Of a stretch of DNA of 64,000 bases, positions 8,152 to 62,044 are shown piece by piece. This DNA comes from an uncultured Bacilli bacterium. Its GTDB lineage: Bacteria > Bacillota_I > Bacilli_A > RF39 > UBA660. Location of the stretch: NCBI GenBank assembly GCA_944350385.1, contig CALVOV010000006.1, positions 1-64,000 of the forward strand, read 5' to 3'. Within the stretch, counting starts at the first letter, position 1; the number at the start of each line of letters is the position of its first letter. Made by a program: the position numbers and the translations under genes. The notes under the pieces are model-generated. The model searched no databases. It saw only the letters and a list, made by a program, of their open reading frames with translations, and was not told the origin of the DNA.

Positions 8152-9057
8152 TTATTTCTTTTTCTGATAAATTAAGATACTATCATTTAATTCTCCTTCA
8201 CAGCAATATTTAAAATTTTCTACTCCAATAAATGTTTTTAATTCAGCACATTCAAAAATACGTAAAGTATTTTTGAGATTATATATCTTACTATAATTTT
8301 CGTTATAATTAGAATGTTTATCTGTTTGATATAGATATGATATTAATATTTTTCCATCTATATTTAATTTTGTTTTTAATTTTTCAAACAATTCAAAAGT
8401 ATCAAAAACATTATTATAGTCAGCAATATTAGATAAGAAAATATTATCATAATTTTTGTTTAAATGATATTTATAAATATCTTTTATTAAAAATGTTGGT
8501 TTAAGATTACTAATTTTACTTTTTAATTTATTATAATTTTCTTCACTTGTTAGATATTTGTTATAATTTTTTATCTCTAATAACTTAGGAGTATCAGAGT
8601 GAAATAAGAATCTTTTAATTTTTCCTATCTTTTCTGTTTCCAATAATGTCTCCCAAAATATTTTTGATGAATCATCTTCCATTTTGTTAAGTATTTTCTT
8701 AAAAACTTTTTTATTGTACGCCTTGGAGTTTTCAAAGAAAAAGCCCTGCATTGACATAAACTTAAAAAAATCTTTATAATCTAGTTCTTCAATAGCAGAT
8801 TTTTTTAAATAAAAGAACTCTTTAATAAATGGATTGATATCTAATAAAGTAATATCTGAACATCCTAGCATATAAGCATTTAATACTTGATCCGAAGAGG
8901 AACCAACTGTTAATAGTGATTTGTTCTCTAAGATAAATTCGTTTAGATAGCCACTTATATTTTCTGTTGTGAAAGGATAAATTTTAATAAAAAAATTATT
9001 ATAGTCTGGATTTTTAATATAATTTTTAGCAAAAGCTATTTTTTCTTGTTGAGTCAT
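8152..9057 (-). CDS. BtaA-like (DUF3419) SAM-dependent transferase homologue
   Basis: 301 residues. The segment LLTVGSSSDQVLNAYMLG, then ITLLDINP, then LKKSAIEELDYKDFF matches the pattern of DUF3419/BtaA proteins, which transfer the 3-amino-3-carboxypropyl group of SAM to diacylglycerol in betaine lipid synthesis. A later FLSNIADY matches their LSNI-DW block. It is shorter than BtaA (around 400 residues) and I see no BtaB partner, so lipid modification is only a guess. The start has AAGGGAG. A TATAAT box lies near 9087-9092 with no good -35. The 200 bases upstream are otherwise featureless. Confidence 0.7.
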   Translation of the reverse strand: MTQQEKIAFAKNYIKNPDYNNFFIKIYPFTTENISGYLNEFILENKSLLTVGSSSDQVLNAYMLGCSDITLLDINPFIKEFFYLKKSAIEELDYKDFFKFMSMQGFFFENSKAYNKKVFKKILNKMEDDSSKIFWETLLETEKIGKIKRFLFHSDTPKLLEIKNYNKYLTSEENYNKLKSKISNLKPTFLIKDIYKYHLNKNYDNIFLSNIADYNNVFDTFELFEKLKTKLNIDGKILISYLYQTDKHSNYNENYSKIYNLKNTLRIFECAELKTFIGVENFKYCCEGELNDSILIYQKKK

Positions 9058-9240
9058 AATTACTCCCTTTCTTTAGATTGCTTATTATATCATATTTTTA
9101 ACTTTTTTAAAATATTGAGAAAATTTTTAATAGAAGTTAAGAAATTTTAATGATTTTTTTAATAACTTATATTAAAAATATTATATCTGAAATTCAATCA
9201 TTTAATTTTATTAATATCATTATTCTCTATAAAATATGTA

Positions 9241-9266
9241 AAAAAAAAAGAATCTTTAGATTCTTT
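9241..9266 (-). terminator. Rho-independent terminator of the P-type ATPase operon
   Basis: Perfect 8-bp stem (9247-9254 with 9259-9266), four-base loop, then a run of T on the minus strand. It overlaps the stop codon of the ATPase gene. Confidence 0.8.
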
Positions 9267-11733
9267 ACTTTTTTATTATTTTTAGTATATCAAAAGGAAT
9301 TATTGCGACTATAGCAATTGAAATAGCAAGTAACAATTCTTTTAATGATAATGATGTTGTTCCTACTAGCTCTCTTAAGAATGGTACATATATTAATAAT
9401 AATAAGATTAATACTATGATACAATTTATTAAACAAATTATCTTATCTTTGAAATCAATAATAAAGTTTTTAATCGCTAATTCATCAGATTGTAGAACAT
9501 AAACTACTATAACGTTAGATAAAACTAGAGTTGCAAAAGAAAATGTCGTAGAAAATGTTTGAGTTGCACCAATCTTCAATAAATAGTAATAACTTCCAAA
9601 GAATGCTAAGAAAATAATTGAGCCTTGTAGTATGCTTTTAAAAACAATCGCCTTATTAATGATTGAATCATCAATTTTTCTTGGTTTTTCGTGCATGACA
9701 TTTTTATCTGGTTTTAGGTGCTGGAAGATTATTGATGATGTTGGGTCTATTATTAATTCTAATAAAACTACATGTATTGGTAATAATAAAGCTGGTAGGT
9801 TAAACAGTGGAACAAAAAGAGCAGCAAAAGCAATTGGAATATGGATAACTAATATATAAGCTATCGCTTTTTTAATATTACTATAAATAGTACGACCATT
9901 TTTAATTGCATCAACAATTGTATTAAAATTATCATCCATTAAAATCATATCAGCTGCTTCTTTAGCTACGTTGGTACCCCTCTGTCCCATTGCAACGCCA
10001 ATTTCAGCTTTTTTAAGTGCTGGAGCATCATTCACTCCATCACCTGTCATGGCAACTACATCACCATTTTCTTGAAGAGCTTTTACAATTCGCATTTTAT
10101 GATTTGGATAAACTCTGGCAAAGATATTCGTATCTTTAACCTTTTCTTTTAATTCTTCATCACTCATTTTTTCTAGTTCAATACCTGTTATAACATTCTC
10201 GTTATGTTGAAGTCCTATTTGACTGGCAATTCCTTTTGCTGTTTTGCCGTTATCACCAGTTATCATAATTATTCTAACTCCAGCGTTGTAACATGATTTA
10301 ACAGATTCTTTTACTCCCCATCTTGGTGGATCAACTAAAGCAATTAAGCCAACAAATTCTAATTTGTTTTCCTTTAATTTTTTTGGAATATCTTTGATGT
10401 TATTTTTCTTAGCGACAGCTAAAACACGATAACCTAAATCAGCATATTTCTCTAATTGTTTTAATATTTCTTTTTCTTCCTGTGAGGATATTTTGCATAA
10501 TGGAGCGACACTTTCATAAGCACCTTTAACGCATAATAAATTCTTATCATCAATATTCCAAATTTGCCCCATCATTTTATCTTCATTATTAAATATGTAT
10601 TCATGGACTAAGTCATAGGTATAAATTTTCTTTGTTAGTCCTTTCTTAATTACATAATCTTGAATAGCAATTTCCATTGGATCATATGGATCTTTTGGAC
10701 AAGCAAGTAAAGCTATTTCTAGAAAATCTGCTGTTAAACTATAGGTATCTTCAACAGTCATTTTATTTTGAGTTAATGTACCTGTTTTATCTGTACATAA
10801 TACTGTTACTGCTCCTAGTGTCTCAACAGCTTTCATATTTCTAGTAAGAGTCTTTTTCTTAGCTAGTCCCCAAGCTCCCATTGCTAAGAAAACAGTTAAA
10901 ACAACAGGTATTTCTTCTGGAATTGTTGCCATAGCAACTGTTATTCCAGATAATATTGATTTGATTATACGATCTTGCAATAATAAATCACTATTATGAA
11001 GAAAATTAATAATTATTACTGCAATAAAGAAAGATAAGCTAATTACAGTACAAATAACAACTAATTTATTTATCTGCTTCTCAAGAGGAGTCTTTTCTTT
11101 AGTTATGGAATTTAGAGCTGTACCTATTTTTCCATATTCTGTATTAACACCGACAGCTGTTACTTTAATCATTGCCGATCCATTGGTAACATCTGTTCCT
11201 GAATAACACATATTAAGTTTAAAATGATTACTACTATCGTCTATTAATTTCTTATGTACTACTTCTGATTCTCCAGTTAGGGCTGATTCATTTATACCTA
11301 ATCCTTGACTTTCTAAAATAATACCATCAGCTGATATTTTATCTCCTTCTTCTAATAAAACAAGATCACCTACTACAATATCTTTACTATCAATAATAGA
11401 GATTTTACCATTTCTTATTACTTTAACATTTAGTGATGATAAGATATTTAATTCTTCTAAAGCTTTATCCGTTTTTTGTTCTTGAACAAATTCTATTCCA
11501 CTAATAAATAAAATAAAACAAAGCATAATTATACCATCACTTGCTTCTCCTAAAACAAAATATATACTAGCGGTAATGAACAAAAGTAAAAACATTGGTT
11601 CAGTAAATACATGCAAGATTTTTTGAAGAAAATTTTCTTTCTTCTTTTTTTCTAATTCATTAGAACCATTCTTTTCTCTTGACTCTAATACTTCTTTTTC
11701 TGTTAATCCACTATACTTTTCATTTTTTTTCAT
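9265..11733 (-). CDS. P2-type cation-transporting ATPase
   Basis: 822 residues with a full P-type layout: actuator TGES (153-156), transmembrane motif PEEIP (272-276), phosphorylation site DKTGTLTQ (Asp315), hinge TGDGVND and a six-helix C-terminal region. Lack of CPx and of N-terminal metal domains excludes the P1B heavy-metal type; the layout fits Ca2+/Mn2+-like P2 pumps. The second gene of an operon behind an ArsR repressor with a zinc-type site, 15 bases apart, which suggests that expression answers to a metal ion. Whether the cargo is calcium, manganese or another divalent ion cannot be decided here. The start has AAAGAGG. Confidence 0.92.
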   Translation of the reverse strand: MKKNEKYSGLTEKEVLESREKNGSNELEKKKKENFLQKILHVFTEPMFLLLFITASIYFVLGEASDGIIMLCFILFISGIEFVQEQKTDKALEELNILSSLNVKVIRNGKISIIDSKDIVVGDLVLLEEGDKISADGIILESQGLGINESALTGESEVVHKKLIDDSSNHFKLNMCYSGTDVTNGSAMIKVTAVGVNTEYGKIGTALNSITKEKTPLEKQINKLVVICTVISLSFFIAVIIINFLHNSDLLLQDRIIKSILSGITVAMATIPEEIPVVLTVFLAMGAWGLAKKKTLTRNMKAVETLGAVTVLCTDKTGTLTQNKMTVEDTYSLTADFLEIALLACPKDPYDPMEIAIQDYVIKKGLTKKIYTYDLVHEYIFNNEDKMMGQIWNIDDKNLLCVKGAYESVAPLCKISSQEEKEILKQLEKYADLGYRVLAVAKKNNIKDIPKKLKENKLEFVGLIALVDPPRWGVKESVKSCYNAGVRIIMITGDNGKTAKGIASQIGLQHNENVITGIELEKMSDEELKEKVKDTNIFARVYPNHKMRIVKALQENGDVVAMTGDGVNDAPALKKAEIGVAMGQRGTNVAKEAADMILMDDNFNTIVDAIKNGRTIYSNIKKAIAYILVIHIPIAFAALFVPLFNLPALLLPIHVVLLELIIDPTSSIIFQHLKPDKNVMHEKPRKIDDSIINKAIVFKSILQGSIIFLAFFGSYYYLLKIGATQTFSTTFSFATLVLSNVIVVYVLQSDELAIKNFIIDFKDKIICLINCIIVLILLLLIYVPFLRELVGTTSLSLKELLLAISIAIVAIIPFDILKIIKK

Positions 11734-11748
11734 AATTAACCTCTTTTA

Positions 11749-12051
11749 TTAAAATTTATTTATAATTTCTTCCATATGATTGAAGCCATATTCCAGTATT
11801 ACTATAACATGGTTGTCAGTAACACTATAAAAAACTGATTGACCTTTTTTTTCTTTTTTTACTAAGTCATATAATCTTAGTATTTTTAGTTGATGAGAAA
11901 TAGCTGATTGATTCATTTGCAACTGTTCACAAATTTCACTTACGCATTTTTCTCCATTTAATAATGTATATAAAATATTTAATCTAGTTGTGTCACCCAG
12001 TACTTTATAAAATTCACTTAGTTTAGCAATAACTCTCTTCTTATTTTCCAT
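11749..12051 (-). CDS. ArsR/SmtB family metal-sensing repressor with alpha-5 zinc site
   Basis: 100 residues with the winged-helix fold: LGDTTRLNILYTLL, then CVSEICEQLQMNQSAISHQLKILR as the recognition region, then KGQSVFYSV as the wing. The last helix has D-x-H-(10 residues)-H-x-x-E, exactly the alpha-5 site of SmtB and CzrA zinc sensors. The alpha-3 box ELCVC of arsenic/lead sensors is replaced by KCVSEICEQ. It should repress its own operon and release on metal binding. It is followed at once by a P2-type ATPase. The start has AGAAGG. Confidence 0.93.
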   Translation of the reverse strand: MENKKRVIAKLSEFYKVLGDTTRLNILYTLLNGEKCVSEICEQLQMNQSAISHQLKILRLYDLVKKEKKGQSVFYSVTDNHVIVILEYGFNHMEEIINKF

Positions 12052-12070
12052 TTTAACCTTCTATTCTATT

Positions 12071-12122
12071 ATATTAATATTTGTTCATATATTCATTATA
12101 TGTTTTTTTTATTCATTGTCAA
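12071..12122 (-). promoter_or_regulatory. Promoter and likely ArsR operator of the arsR-ATPase operon
   Basis: On the minus strand: TTGACA (12117-12122), 16-base spacer, TATAAT (12095-12100). Just downstream, 12071-12090 reads ATATGAACAAATATTAATAT: the left half ATATGAACA equals the SmtB/CzrA half-site, the right half is degenerate. Placed over the transcription start, binding there would block the polymerase. Confidence 0.75.
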
Positions 12123-12191
12123 TAAATAATCATTCATAATATTTTATTTTTTTTATTAAAAATATTGACAAAAAAAAAGAAAATTTTTTTC

Positions 12192-12692
12192 TTAATTTTT
12201 ATTAATTGATAAAGTGATTTGTACGTCTCCAATACCTAGTATGTATCTTAATTCTTCAGAAGTTACATTATCTATTTTACCTAATCTAGTATAGTTCCAA
12301 CTATTAGATGCATAATGAATAGTTAATTGATCTCCTTGATAGAGAATTAAGTCTCCTGCTGTTGTTGTAATATATTCATCTTCTGTTGGAAGGAAAAAGC
12401 CTATGGAACCTACTTTTTCAAAGTTACCATATTCTTTCATTTCAATTGTTATATCATTTTTTAAAAGTTTTTTTATCAAATCATCAGTTGCTGAATTGTT
12501 AACTAATGTTACTGGCAAAACATTATCATTTACTTTTAAATATATTTTCATATTATCACTACTTTCTATGTTAATTTGTTCGTTATTTTCTTGTTTAATA
12601 TTTGTTTTTGCATTTTGAATATTAAAATAAGTTATGAGTAAAATGGAAATGATTAATAATATTATAATTAAAATAATTAATCTTTTTTTCAT
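12192..12692 (-). CDS. Membrane-anchored cyclophilin-like fold protein
   Basis: 166 residues: an N-terminal transmembrane helix (about 5-24), a charged linker and a domain containing MKEYGNFEKVGSIGFFLP, then TTAGDLILYQGDQLTIHYASNSWNYTRLG in successive strands. This is the pattern of the cyclophilin-like domain family (PF18050 type), often a lipoprotein or secreted in Bacillota; biochemical role unknown. The start has AGAGG. A short AT-only hairpin with T-run just past the stop (12168-12190) may terminate it. Confidence 0.8.
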   Translation of the reverse strand: MKKRLIILIIILLIISILLITYFNIQNAKTNIKQENNEQINIESSDNMKIYLKVNDNVLPVTLVNNSATDDLIKKLLKNDITIEMKEYGNFEKVGSIGFFLPTEDEYITTTAGDLILYQGDQLTIHYASNSWNYTRLGKIDNVTSEELRYILGIGDVQITLSINKN

Positions 12693-15027: not shown

Positions 15028-15921
15028 TTAGTGATGATGGTGATGTTGTTCTTGAGAAACACTTGGTTTTATATTACATTCTTTTTTATCACAAGCATCT
15101 TTTTTATCTTCTATTTCTATAGTACTATGAACGATTCCTAACTCTTCCATCTCTTCTCTAATTTCTTTTTTTAATTCACTAATATTTTTACTATCAGTTA
15201 CAACATGCATTGTTGAATAATTAGTATTTCCGTCTATGCTCCATACATGAATATGATGAACATCTAAAACACCTTTTGCTTCTCCTATATGACGCTTTAT
15301 TTCATCTATAGAAATATTATTAGGAATTTTTTCTAAAAATAAATCCAAAATATCTTTTAAATTTTTGAATGAATTTATTAATATGAAACTTGCTACTCCA
15401 ATTGACATTATTGAATCAATTAAACTAATATCTGTAAATTTCATTAGGATAGCTCCTATTAAAACAACTATCCAACCTAAAACATCTTCTAACATATGTA
15501 GATTTACAGCTTTTTGATTTATAGAATCTCCTTCTCTTGTTGAATAAGCTGCTAAGAAGTTAATAATTACTCCTAATATTGCAAAAATAATCATACCATT
15601 GTAATTTATTTCAACAGGTGAAAATACTCTTTTAATACCACCTATTATTACAAAAATAGATCCTAGTGTTAAAATAATTGTAGTTATTAAGGCTCCTAAT
15701 ATTGAATATCTAACATAACCATAGGTATAAATTTCATCTGGTTTTCTTTTGCTAATTTTTTCTAGAATGTAAGATATTCCAATACTTAAAGCATCTCCAA
15801 AGTCATGGATAGCATCAGACATAATAGAAATGCTATTTGTGAAAAATCCGCCAATTAACTCTATAATAGAAAAAGCTAAATTTAAAATAAACGCTACTAA
15901 AATATTTTTTTCTGTTTTCAT
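15028..15921 (-). CDS. Cation diffusion facilitator, zinc-type
   Basis: 297 residues with the CDF layout: six transmembrane helices, then a cytoplasmic ferredoxin-like domain with HIHVWSIDGN. The transport-site pairs are HDFGD in helix 2 and HMLED in helix 5, an H-D-H-D arrangement as in CzcD/ZitB zinc/cadmium exporters rather than the all-Asp manganese type. The C terminus ends with five His residues and a Cys pair (CDKKEC), likely extra metal ligands. It follows a csoR-type repressor by 9 bases. The start has AAGGGG. Confidence 0.92.
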   Translation of the reverse strand: MKTEKNILVAFILNLAFSIIELIGGFFTNSISIMSDAIHDFGDALSIGISYILEKISKRKPDEIYTYGYVRYSILGALITTIILTLGSIFVIIGGIKRVFSPVEINYNGMIIFAILGVIINFLAAYSTREGDSINQKAVNLHMLEDVLGWIVVLIGAILMKFTDISLIDSIMSIGVASFILINSFKNLKDILDLFLEKIPNNISIDEIKRHIGEAKGVLDVHHIHVWSIDGNTNYSTMHVVTDSKNISELKKEIREEMEELGIVHSTIEIEDKKDACDKKECNIKPSVSQEQHHHHH

Positions 15922-15930
15922 AAATTCCCC

Positions 15931-16224
15931 TTATTGATTAAATTTTTTGAATAAACCAATTAATTCATTAATAGTTTCTGTATTTTTATCTTTCAACTCT
16001 TTAGTAACACATTTTTGTAAGTGACTTTCTAATATAAAATTAGACAAGCTCTTTACTGATTTTTCAACGGCTACAGTTTGAATTAATATATCATTACATT
16101 CAAAATCATTATTAATCATTTTTTCGATTCCAGATATTTGACCTTTAATACGATTGATTCTATTAGTGATTAACTTTTTTTCTTCTTCTGTTCTAATTGT
16201 TTGTTTATTTTTTTCTTTTTTCAT
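15931..16224 (-). CDS. CsoR/FrmR family metal-sensing repressor
   Basis: 97 residues, all helical, with NRINRIKGQISGIEKMI near the N terminus. The metal-site residues are Cys in NDFECND, His and Cys in ESHLQKC (H-x3-C), the C-H-C set of copper-type CsoR proteins; the FrmR/RcnR extra His set is missing. It is read with a CDF exporter of zinc type, an odd match discussed below. The start is the ATG at 16224 preceded by GGTGATAAA; the open frame runs on to 16269, but that part is operator and promoter. Confidence 0.9.
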   Translation of the reverse strand: MKKEKNKQTIRTEEEKKLITNRINRIKGQISGIEKMINNDFECNDILIQTVAVEKSVKSLSNFILESHLQKCVTKELKDKNTETINELIGLFKKFNQ

Positions 16225-16239
16225 TTTATCACCATGTCC

Positions 16240-16269
16240 ATTATATACCCTGCTGGGTATATTAAGCAA
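16240..16269 (-). promoter_or_regulatory. csoR-CDF promoter with embedded CsoR-type operator
   Basis: Minus strand: TTGCTT (16264-16269), 18-base spacer, TATAAT (16240-16245). A perfect inverted repeat of two 8-base arms around four bases (16243-16262: ATATACCC, AGCA, GGGTATAT) fills the spacer and touches the -10. A/T-rich ends with a CCC/GGG core match operators of CsoR-family repressors. Confidence 0.85.
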
Positions 16270-61856: not shown

Positions 61857-62038
61857 AAAAAAATCAGGTTGAGCGTCCTTGCTAACGATAAAACCTGCGC
61901 GTTCCCACAGGTGGGTGTCCGTACGCTATCTTTAGGATTCTTAAATAATATTAAGCATTCAACACGGATAACTGATCAAGACTCCCGTATCGTTATTTTA
62001 GTCGGTTTTATAAGAAGCAGGTCTCGCATCTTCCTGAC
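61857..62038 (-). ncRNA. ssrS: Probable 6S RNA
   Basis: A GC-richer block of about 180 bases with no convincing reading frame, with its own promoter and terminator on the minus strand. Complementary ends close it: TCAGG (62033-62037) with CCTGA (61864-61868), then GCG with CGC, then ACCTGC with GCAGGT, separated by internal loops; the middle holds ACGG/CCGT and CCCA-CCTG-TGGG hairpins. After the closing stem comes a T7 run (61857-61863). Length, end pairing, large internal bubbles and position beside tcdA/aspS (6S-1 lies in that neighbourhood in B. subtilis) fit 6S RNA, which binds the housekeeping RNA polymerase. Another stable RNA cannot be excluded. Confidence 0.6.
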
Positions 62039-62044
62039 AATTAT

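Follow-up and report, generated by a model that had tools for sequence, protein, structure and literature searches.

How does a repressor of the zinc-sensing SmtB/CzrA type come to head an operon whose single structural gene encodes a P-type ATPase built like a calcium pump? The question is raised by a two-gene unit in a 64,000-nucleotide (nt) stretch of DNA from an uncultured Bacilli bacterium (GenBank assembly GCA_944350385.1, contig CALVOV010000006.1, positions 1 to 64,000 of the forward strand), which we call the window. According to the list of open reading frames (ORFs) and the sequence, the unit occupies 12122-9265 of the minus strand, with promoter, operator, arsR and pump in that order (Table 1). 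The original prediction had left two alternatives, that the pump moves zinc-like ions or that the sensor answers to another metal; the clade of the pump, its ion-site residues and a sister clade linked to the NiCo riboswitch favor the first. We read the unit as a bicistronic metal-detoxification operon in which the pump belongs to a clade of Zn/Co/Ni (possibly Fe) pumps and an ArsR with its metal site in helix alpha-5 stands in NiCo's place, a reading to which we give a probability of roughly 0.6. Labels beginning with G and L are ours, for genomes and loci; own genus, family and genome are those of the window.

The pump belongs to a separate clade of P-type ATPases

The pump carries DKTGT and the Cation_ATPase_N and Cation_ATPase_C domains. 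Its transmembrane segment M4 reads PEEIPV and it has no CPx motif, as had been predicted. Of the P-type models listed it passes the general one alone, TIGR01494; all the more specific ones have cut-offs that it fails to reach. Nearest is the PMR1-type Ca pump model TIGR01522 (525 bits, cut-off 798). Its score against the P2A Ca2+-ATPase equivalog TIGR01116 is 424 bits (cut-off 703), a shortfall that is weak taken alone because a bona fide-looking P2A fragment (L281, 468 residues) is also under the cut-off. The P3A H+ model TIGR01647 (439 vs. 615 bits), the P3B Mg2+ model TIGR01524 (342 vs. 611) and the P1B model TIGR01525 (249 vs. 346) do not fit either, and the CPx or SPC that P1B pumps have in M4 is absent.

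Its closest relative of solved structure is LMCA1, a Ca2+-ATPase of Listeria. In the alignment of the two, which is gapless within M4 and within M5-M6, the M5 Asn is replaced by His631 and the M6 Asn by Glu659, Asp663 is kept, and Glu274 comes right after the conserved M4 Glu273. At the positions that we take to be the P2A Ca2+ ligands (N768 and E771 in M5, N796 in M6), the pump has His631, Ile634 and Glu659.

Of the 89 ATPases placed in one tree, 63, the window pump among them, form a single clade (Shimodaira-Hasegawa-like approximate likelihood-ratio test, SH-aLRT, 100 by a quick method), named here the PEE clade after its M4 motif, from which the canonical P2A rows, those linked to the Mn riboswitch and the MgtA outgroup are all separate. 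These are selected rows: 21 of the 37 PEE-type loci and 15 of the 43 other loci from one contig search, 14 own-family loci (without the broken G204), 19 further NiCo-linked pumps (L235 and L237 unused), 8 pumps of a second Clostridiaceae subclade, 6 Mn-linked fragments, 2 own-genome paralogues and 2 own-family P2 pumps. The window pump shares the M4-M6 residues conserved in the clade. His631 is present in 63/63 PEE rows, vs. Asn in 18 of the 19 P2A rows with a letter there; Glu659 in 62/63, vs. Asn (16) or Asp (3) in 19 P2A rows; Pro664 and Glu274 each in 63/63; and Asp663 in 58/63. These counts are partly circular, since the far rows were picked after PEE and HxP had been seen; the Clostridiaceae and own-family rows were picked by overall similarity. 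The phylogeny that the original prediction had called for places the pump outside the Ca/Mn P2A rows compared, with other ion-site residues, and the label "P2-type (Ca/Mn-like)" proved too loose.

PEE-clade pumps also occur on plasmids (25 records at E 1e-120), where they are annotated simply as "cation-translocating P-type ATPase". No Rfam match was found in the four plasmid contexts read. A Sphingomonas plasmid pump (L283) lies near TnsA/TniB/TniQ-type transposition genes, and one from Chryseobacterium (L285) lies near a CzcA-type resistance-nodulation-division (RND) efflux operon.

Riboswitches upstream of the pump clade

NiCo (RF02683) lies directly upstream of a PEE-type pump in 4 of the 11 loci searched, in Clostridium, Acetobacterium, an Oscillospiraceae and another Clostridia genome. 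A fifth, L068, has it at 2.2 kb; in L068 and L191 (Lentisphaeria) the riboswitch stands ahead of an unassigned gene, 2.2 kb upstream of the pump. In the own family, NiCo precedes the pump in G120 and G186 (scores 40.2 and 39.8, cut-off 37), and an E-value RNA family search did not find it among 11 own-family loci. Seven genomes selected because NiCo had already been seen near the pump hold 10 NiCo copies, 8 of them ahead of a PEE-clade pump, and 5 of these genomes have no other NiCo.

The unselected test covered 146 genomes of the family of G463 (Clostridium lacusfryxellense; Clostridiaceae), with 35 NiCo copies and 42 pumps listed. Every pump at least 63% identical to the C. lacusfryxellense pump (L066) has NiCo 93-212 nt before the match (22/22, related sequences that stand for few events). 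Read from the riboswitch side, 30 of the NiCo loci show a pump behind 22, a cation diffusion facilitator (CDF) behind 5 and neither behind 3. On the tree, where L068 was labeled NiCo despite the distance, the NiCo-linked pumps form nearly one clade, and the label needs two changes. Loci L202, L197 and L217 have NiCo without an intact pump behind it, and by eye L202 keeps an apparent pump remnant. Regulators near pumps of the second Clostridiaceae subclade were sought by eye in eight loci, without gain.

For contrast we took Mn-riboswitch (RF00080) matches in 59 genomes of the same family and read 30 loci. Mn-riboswitch-like matches precede ordinary P2A pumps in 6/30 and a PEE-type pump in 0/30, and all six P2A pumps fall outside the PEE clade; the contrast is moderate, since all six matches are under the Rfam gathering score.

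The sensor and its relatives

The repressor passes PF01022 (62.7 bits, cut-off 22) and NF033788 (90.4 bits, cut-off 55). Its closest solved relatives are SmtB (E 7e-17) and CzrA (E 1e-16), with both of which phmmer aligns it without gaps into the alpha-5 helix. The C-terminus, D-N-H-x10-H-M-E-E, keeps all four alpha-5 ligand positions and fits the pattern D-x-H-x10-H-x2-E/H, so the complete SmtB/CzrA-like site of the original prediction holds. By eye, the alpha-3 box is KCVSEIC, and there is neither a C-x-C in it nor an N-terminal Cys, so that a CadC-type site appears to be absent.

We compared 45 related ArsR loci, the window's included, all of them best-scoring matches: 30 from a search with some match in 129 of 288 genomes, and 15 from a further search with matches in 31 of 386 genomes at E 1e-26. 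The alpha-5 pattern is present in 44/45, the aligned piece of L034 being without it. The gene behind is a P1B ATPase in 36, a divergent P1B in one (L025), a cysteine desulfurase in four, a PEE-type pump in two (window, G356), a CDF in one (G117) and none assigned in one (L032). One P1B pump taken in full (L170) exceeds the cut-off of the cadmium-type subfamily TIGR01512 (459 vs. 313.5 bits). In a tree of 37 of these loci (the 8 missed by a motif search were left out), the ArsR proteins of the window, G356 and G117 form one small clade (support 100/99), with G356 nearest to the window.

The G117 repressor precedes a CDF transporter that is 73% identical to a CDF at 15028-15921 in the window, so the effector switches between a PEE-type pump and a CDF-type exporter within one sensor clade. 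The window CDF, which has a His-rich tail, lies beside a CsoR-like regulator (15028-16269) while its G117 homologue is under a window-type ArsR; sensors and effectors have thus been reshuffled. On these comparisons we favor an exchange of the effector behind a Zn/Co-type sensor as the probable history of the window unit.

A same-family alpha-5 ArsR heads a cysteine desulfurase gene in four own-family loci (L010, L018, L026 and L157), which form one clade (100/99). In the three read, an IscU-like gene comes next (by eye), and the half-site TGAACA was seen in the upstream stretches read, those of L010, L018 and L157. Here a zinc-type sensor is apparently set on Fe-S assembly genes.

Promoter, operator and operon end

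The original prediction of a near-perfect promoter adjoining a half-site is borne out by the sequence. The promoter at 12122-12095 is the top-scoring of 23 promoter-like matches in 9050-12300, where such matches are overall no commoner than in shuffles (23 vs. 24.7); the weight therefore rests on its 12/12 consensus positions and on the operator. The half-site ATATGAACA lies at 12090-12082, 4 nt past the -10 box, and is part of the palindrome ATATGAACAAATATTAATAT, whose left half is perfect and whose right half is one base off the relatives' commonest form (TTCATAT to TTAATAT). A full palindrome close to ATATGAACAnnTATTCATAT is present in 13 of the 24 related ArsR upstream stretches read, among them G356 with ATATGAACAATTATTCATA; in the stretch of L032, also among the 24, no half-site was found. 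A palindromic operator at the repressor's own promoter, one of the traits of the alpha-5 ArsR subgroup, is thus present in the window.

In the 1.36-Mb own genome, exact ATATGAACANNTATT occurs once, at the arsR promoter, so ArsR looks local in action; with one mismatch the pattern occurs at 24 places, vs. 13 for a reversed control. This is one reason why we rejected the idea that ArsR controls a Zn pump elsewhere in the own genome. The other is that the P1B ATPase found there has its best score among the Cu/Cd subtypes as a copper-type pump (570 bits) and a CopZ-like gene adjacent (by eye).

At the other end of the unit, the fold of the candidate terminator has z = -2.28, and equally good folds arise in 7/200 shuffles; a shorter stretch without half of the hairpin stem gave no fold. 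A consensus scan, which demands more G-C pairs, did not flag this hairpin, so it is a likely operon end.

Table 1 Features of the two-gene unit, in window coordinates
Feature	Position	Strand	Basis
Sigma-70-type promoter, TTGACA-16-TATAAT	12095..12122	-	12/12 consensus positions
Operator ATATGAACAAATATTAATAT, SmtB/CzrA-like palindrome	12071..12090	-	Upstream stretches of relatives; pattern search of own genome
ArsR/SmtB-family repressor, 100 residues, complete alpha-5 metal site (D-x-H-x10-H-x2-E)	11749..12051	-	ORF, profiles, alignment
P-type ATPase, 822 residues, separate clade; likely divalent transition-metal exporter	9265..11733	-	ORF, profiles, tree, site residues
Weak hairpin and U-run overlapping the pump stop codon; candidate terminator of the two-gene operon	9240..9272	-	Fold

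Recurrence of the ArsR-pump pair

A second genus (G356) has the same pair, with 72% identity for ArsR and 75% for the pump; arsR and pump are 21 nt apart there and 15 nt apart in the window, and the flanks are unlike the window's. Differences between the two genomes affect 45% of third codon positions in the pump gene, vs. 21% and 10% of the others, and 39% vs. 19% and 12% in arsR; this concentration at third positions is expected under purifying selection. The G+C content is ordinary (28% vs. 27%).

Elsewhere the pairing is rare. Among 16 own-family pump homologues (at least 46% identity, own included), ArsR is directly upstream in two (window, G356) and NiCo in two (G120, G186), and no recognized metal switch was found in the upstream 0.7-1.5 kb or more of the other 12, protein regulators being judged by eye. 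In the 37 PEE-type loci of the searched genome contigs, ArsR is directly upstream in none, and an ArsR-like ORF lies elsewhere in the flank in three. We therefore rejected the idea that pumps of this clade are generally paired with ArsR. Within the own genus (6 genomes), the pump is found at E 1e-150 in G000 alone, and two other genomes have a 54-55% identical ArsR ahead of a P1B ATPase; a class-wide search at 1e-180 found the pump in 2 of 272 genomes (G000 and G005).

Some pump loci have other features of note. L174 and L164 carry a thioredoxin-like gene and a permease less than about 3 kb upstream of the pump, joined in L174 by an ArsR whose box, ELCAC, is of the arsenic type (by eye), a possible resistance island. 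In L039 (G204), several stop codons interrupt a near relative's pump gene.

Proposed mechanism and alternatives

A dimer of metal-free ArsR would block transcription by occupying the palindrome immediately past the -10 box. Zn2+ (or Co2+, Cd2+) in the two alpha-5 sites would take ArsR off the DNA, arsR and pump would be made, and the pump would hydrolyze ATP and export the ion from the cytosol. We infer the derepression, the direction of export and the identity of the metal from these comparisons. The ion would be bound by Glu273/Glu274 in M4, His631 in M5 and Glu659/Asp663 in M6, replacing the Asn/Glu set of Ca2+ pumps. The close clade in Clostridiaceae would be controlled by NiCo, whose place the alpha-5 ArsR would take in the window. 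A d-block divalent cation is favored over Ca/Mn on three counts, the sensor's kin, a sister clade linked to a riboswitch, and the ion site with its His and Glu; Co2+ and Zn2+ are ranked first because they are common to both sensor types, with Fe2+ a serious rival. More broadly, we put it at slightly better than even odds that this widespread branch of Ca2+-pump-like P-type ATPases, which has no assigned function, exports Zn/Co/Ni/Fe by way of a His/Glu site as a second lineage of transition-metal exporters lacking CPx, and is interchangeable behind NiCo RNA or an SmtB-type ArsR.

Several points weigh against a metal-detoxification operon of this kind. No riboswitch was found upstream of the window pump, the sole Rfam match over cut-off in the window being a 6S RNA (61858-62042, minus strand; 54.6 bits, cut-off 46.4). 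The own-family NiCo matches are barely over the cut-off, the remaining 20 of the 42 Clostridiaceae pumps (44-54% identity) have no listed NiCo alongside, and the NiCo association, for which the tree needs two changes, may go back to a single old event. A directly preceding ArsR is present in 2/16 own-family and 0/37 PEE-type loci, and the nearest pumps without it (G005 and G062) have no recognized metal switch. The operator is degenerate in its right half. In cells, Fe2+ may be what NiCo responds to, and we know of no Fe2+-sensing alpha-5 ArsR.

The best-placed alternative, though an unlikely one, is that the pump is mainly a ferrous-iron exporter, with ArsR induced by Co/Zn as a general metal-stress signal or drifted to Fe2+. 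The Zn/Co-type site of ArsR is intact, its relatives stand ahead of P1B pumps and a CDF, and the missing precedent for iron sensing by such a repressor counts here as well; on the other side, the pump's sister clade is NiCo-linked, and the ligand of NiCo is disputed. One study has NiCo bound by Ni and Co and not by Fe or Zn, and a later anaerobic study has it bound by Co, Ni, Zn and Fe and argues for Fe and Mn as the likely ligands in cells (PMC7689651; also PMC11477304). The same sources describe a Listeria P1B target that shields B. subtilis from Fe2+, and less from Mn2+ and Zn2+ (PMC7689651, PMC11477304).

A Ca2+ or Mn2+ pump under an ArsR that senses something besides the pumped ion is improbable. 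LMCA1 is indeed the closest solved relative and the PMR1-type model the best specific NCBIfam match, itself well under its cut-off, but the pump's clade is separate, the M5 and M6 Asn are replaced by His and Glu, and the Mn-riboswitch-like matches, albeit all under the Rfam cut-off, precede P2A pumps and never the PEE type. An ordinary Ca/Mn pump was rejected on site residues, tree and riboswitch contrast. Slightly less probable still is that the genes are accidental neighbors, ArsR controlling itself alone and the pump having its own promoter: 14 of the 16 own-family pumps do lack an ArsR directly upstream, but the order recurs with short gaps in two genera with different flanks, and there is no minus-strand promoter-like match between 11734 and 12049.

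If PEE-clade pumps export Zn/Co/Ni/Fe, a function could be assigned to the whole clade, P-type export of transition metals would no longer be confined to CPx (P1B) pumps and the known Mn pumps, and the M5 His/M6 Glu set would become a signature of selectivity open to testing. RNA and protein sensors would each report independently on the metal actually moved, with a bearing on what NiCo senses.

Comparison with known systems

No description of a unit of alpha-5 ArsR and P2-like pump, or of a function for the PEE clade, was found in the literature searched, whose coverage leaves out most subscription papers and the founding NiCo papers. P-type ATPases are reportedly named in Furukawa 2015 and by Xu & Cotruvo (2020 and 2022), and the PEE-type pump group may already be listed there.

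The YoaB type is a Mn-exporting P-type ATPase under a yybP-ykoY Mn riboswitch (PMC11477304). The window unit resembles it in having a P-type ATPase, here a putative metal exporter, under a metal switch, and differs in that the pumps behind Mn-riboswitch-like matches lie outside the PEE clade, YoaB itself not being among the compared sequences. With Listeria LMCA1 and the PMR1-type P2A Ca2+ (Mn2+) ATPases, the window pump shares domain architecture and full-length sequence similarity; unlike them, it has PEE in M4, His in M5 and Glu in M6, belongs to a separate clade and stays under the curated cut-offs. As to the transporters under NiCo (czcD, RF02683), sister-clade pumps stand directly behind NiCo in the Clostridiaceae sample, as do the G120 and G186 pumps in the own family, whereas the window operon relies on a protein for sensing and is without a riboswitch.

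CzrA-CzrB or CzrA-CzcD, ZiaR-ZiaA and SmtB are efflux units governed by an alpha-5 ArsR, and such units are known with CDF or P1B effectors. Like these, the window unit combines a D-x-H..H-x2-E sensor in alpha-5, a palindrome at the sensor's own promoter and a putative metal exporter as effector; unlike them, it has as effector a P-type ATPase whose domain set is P2-like, in place of a CDF or a P1B (CPx) pump.

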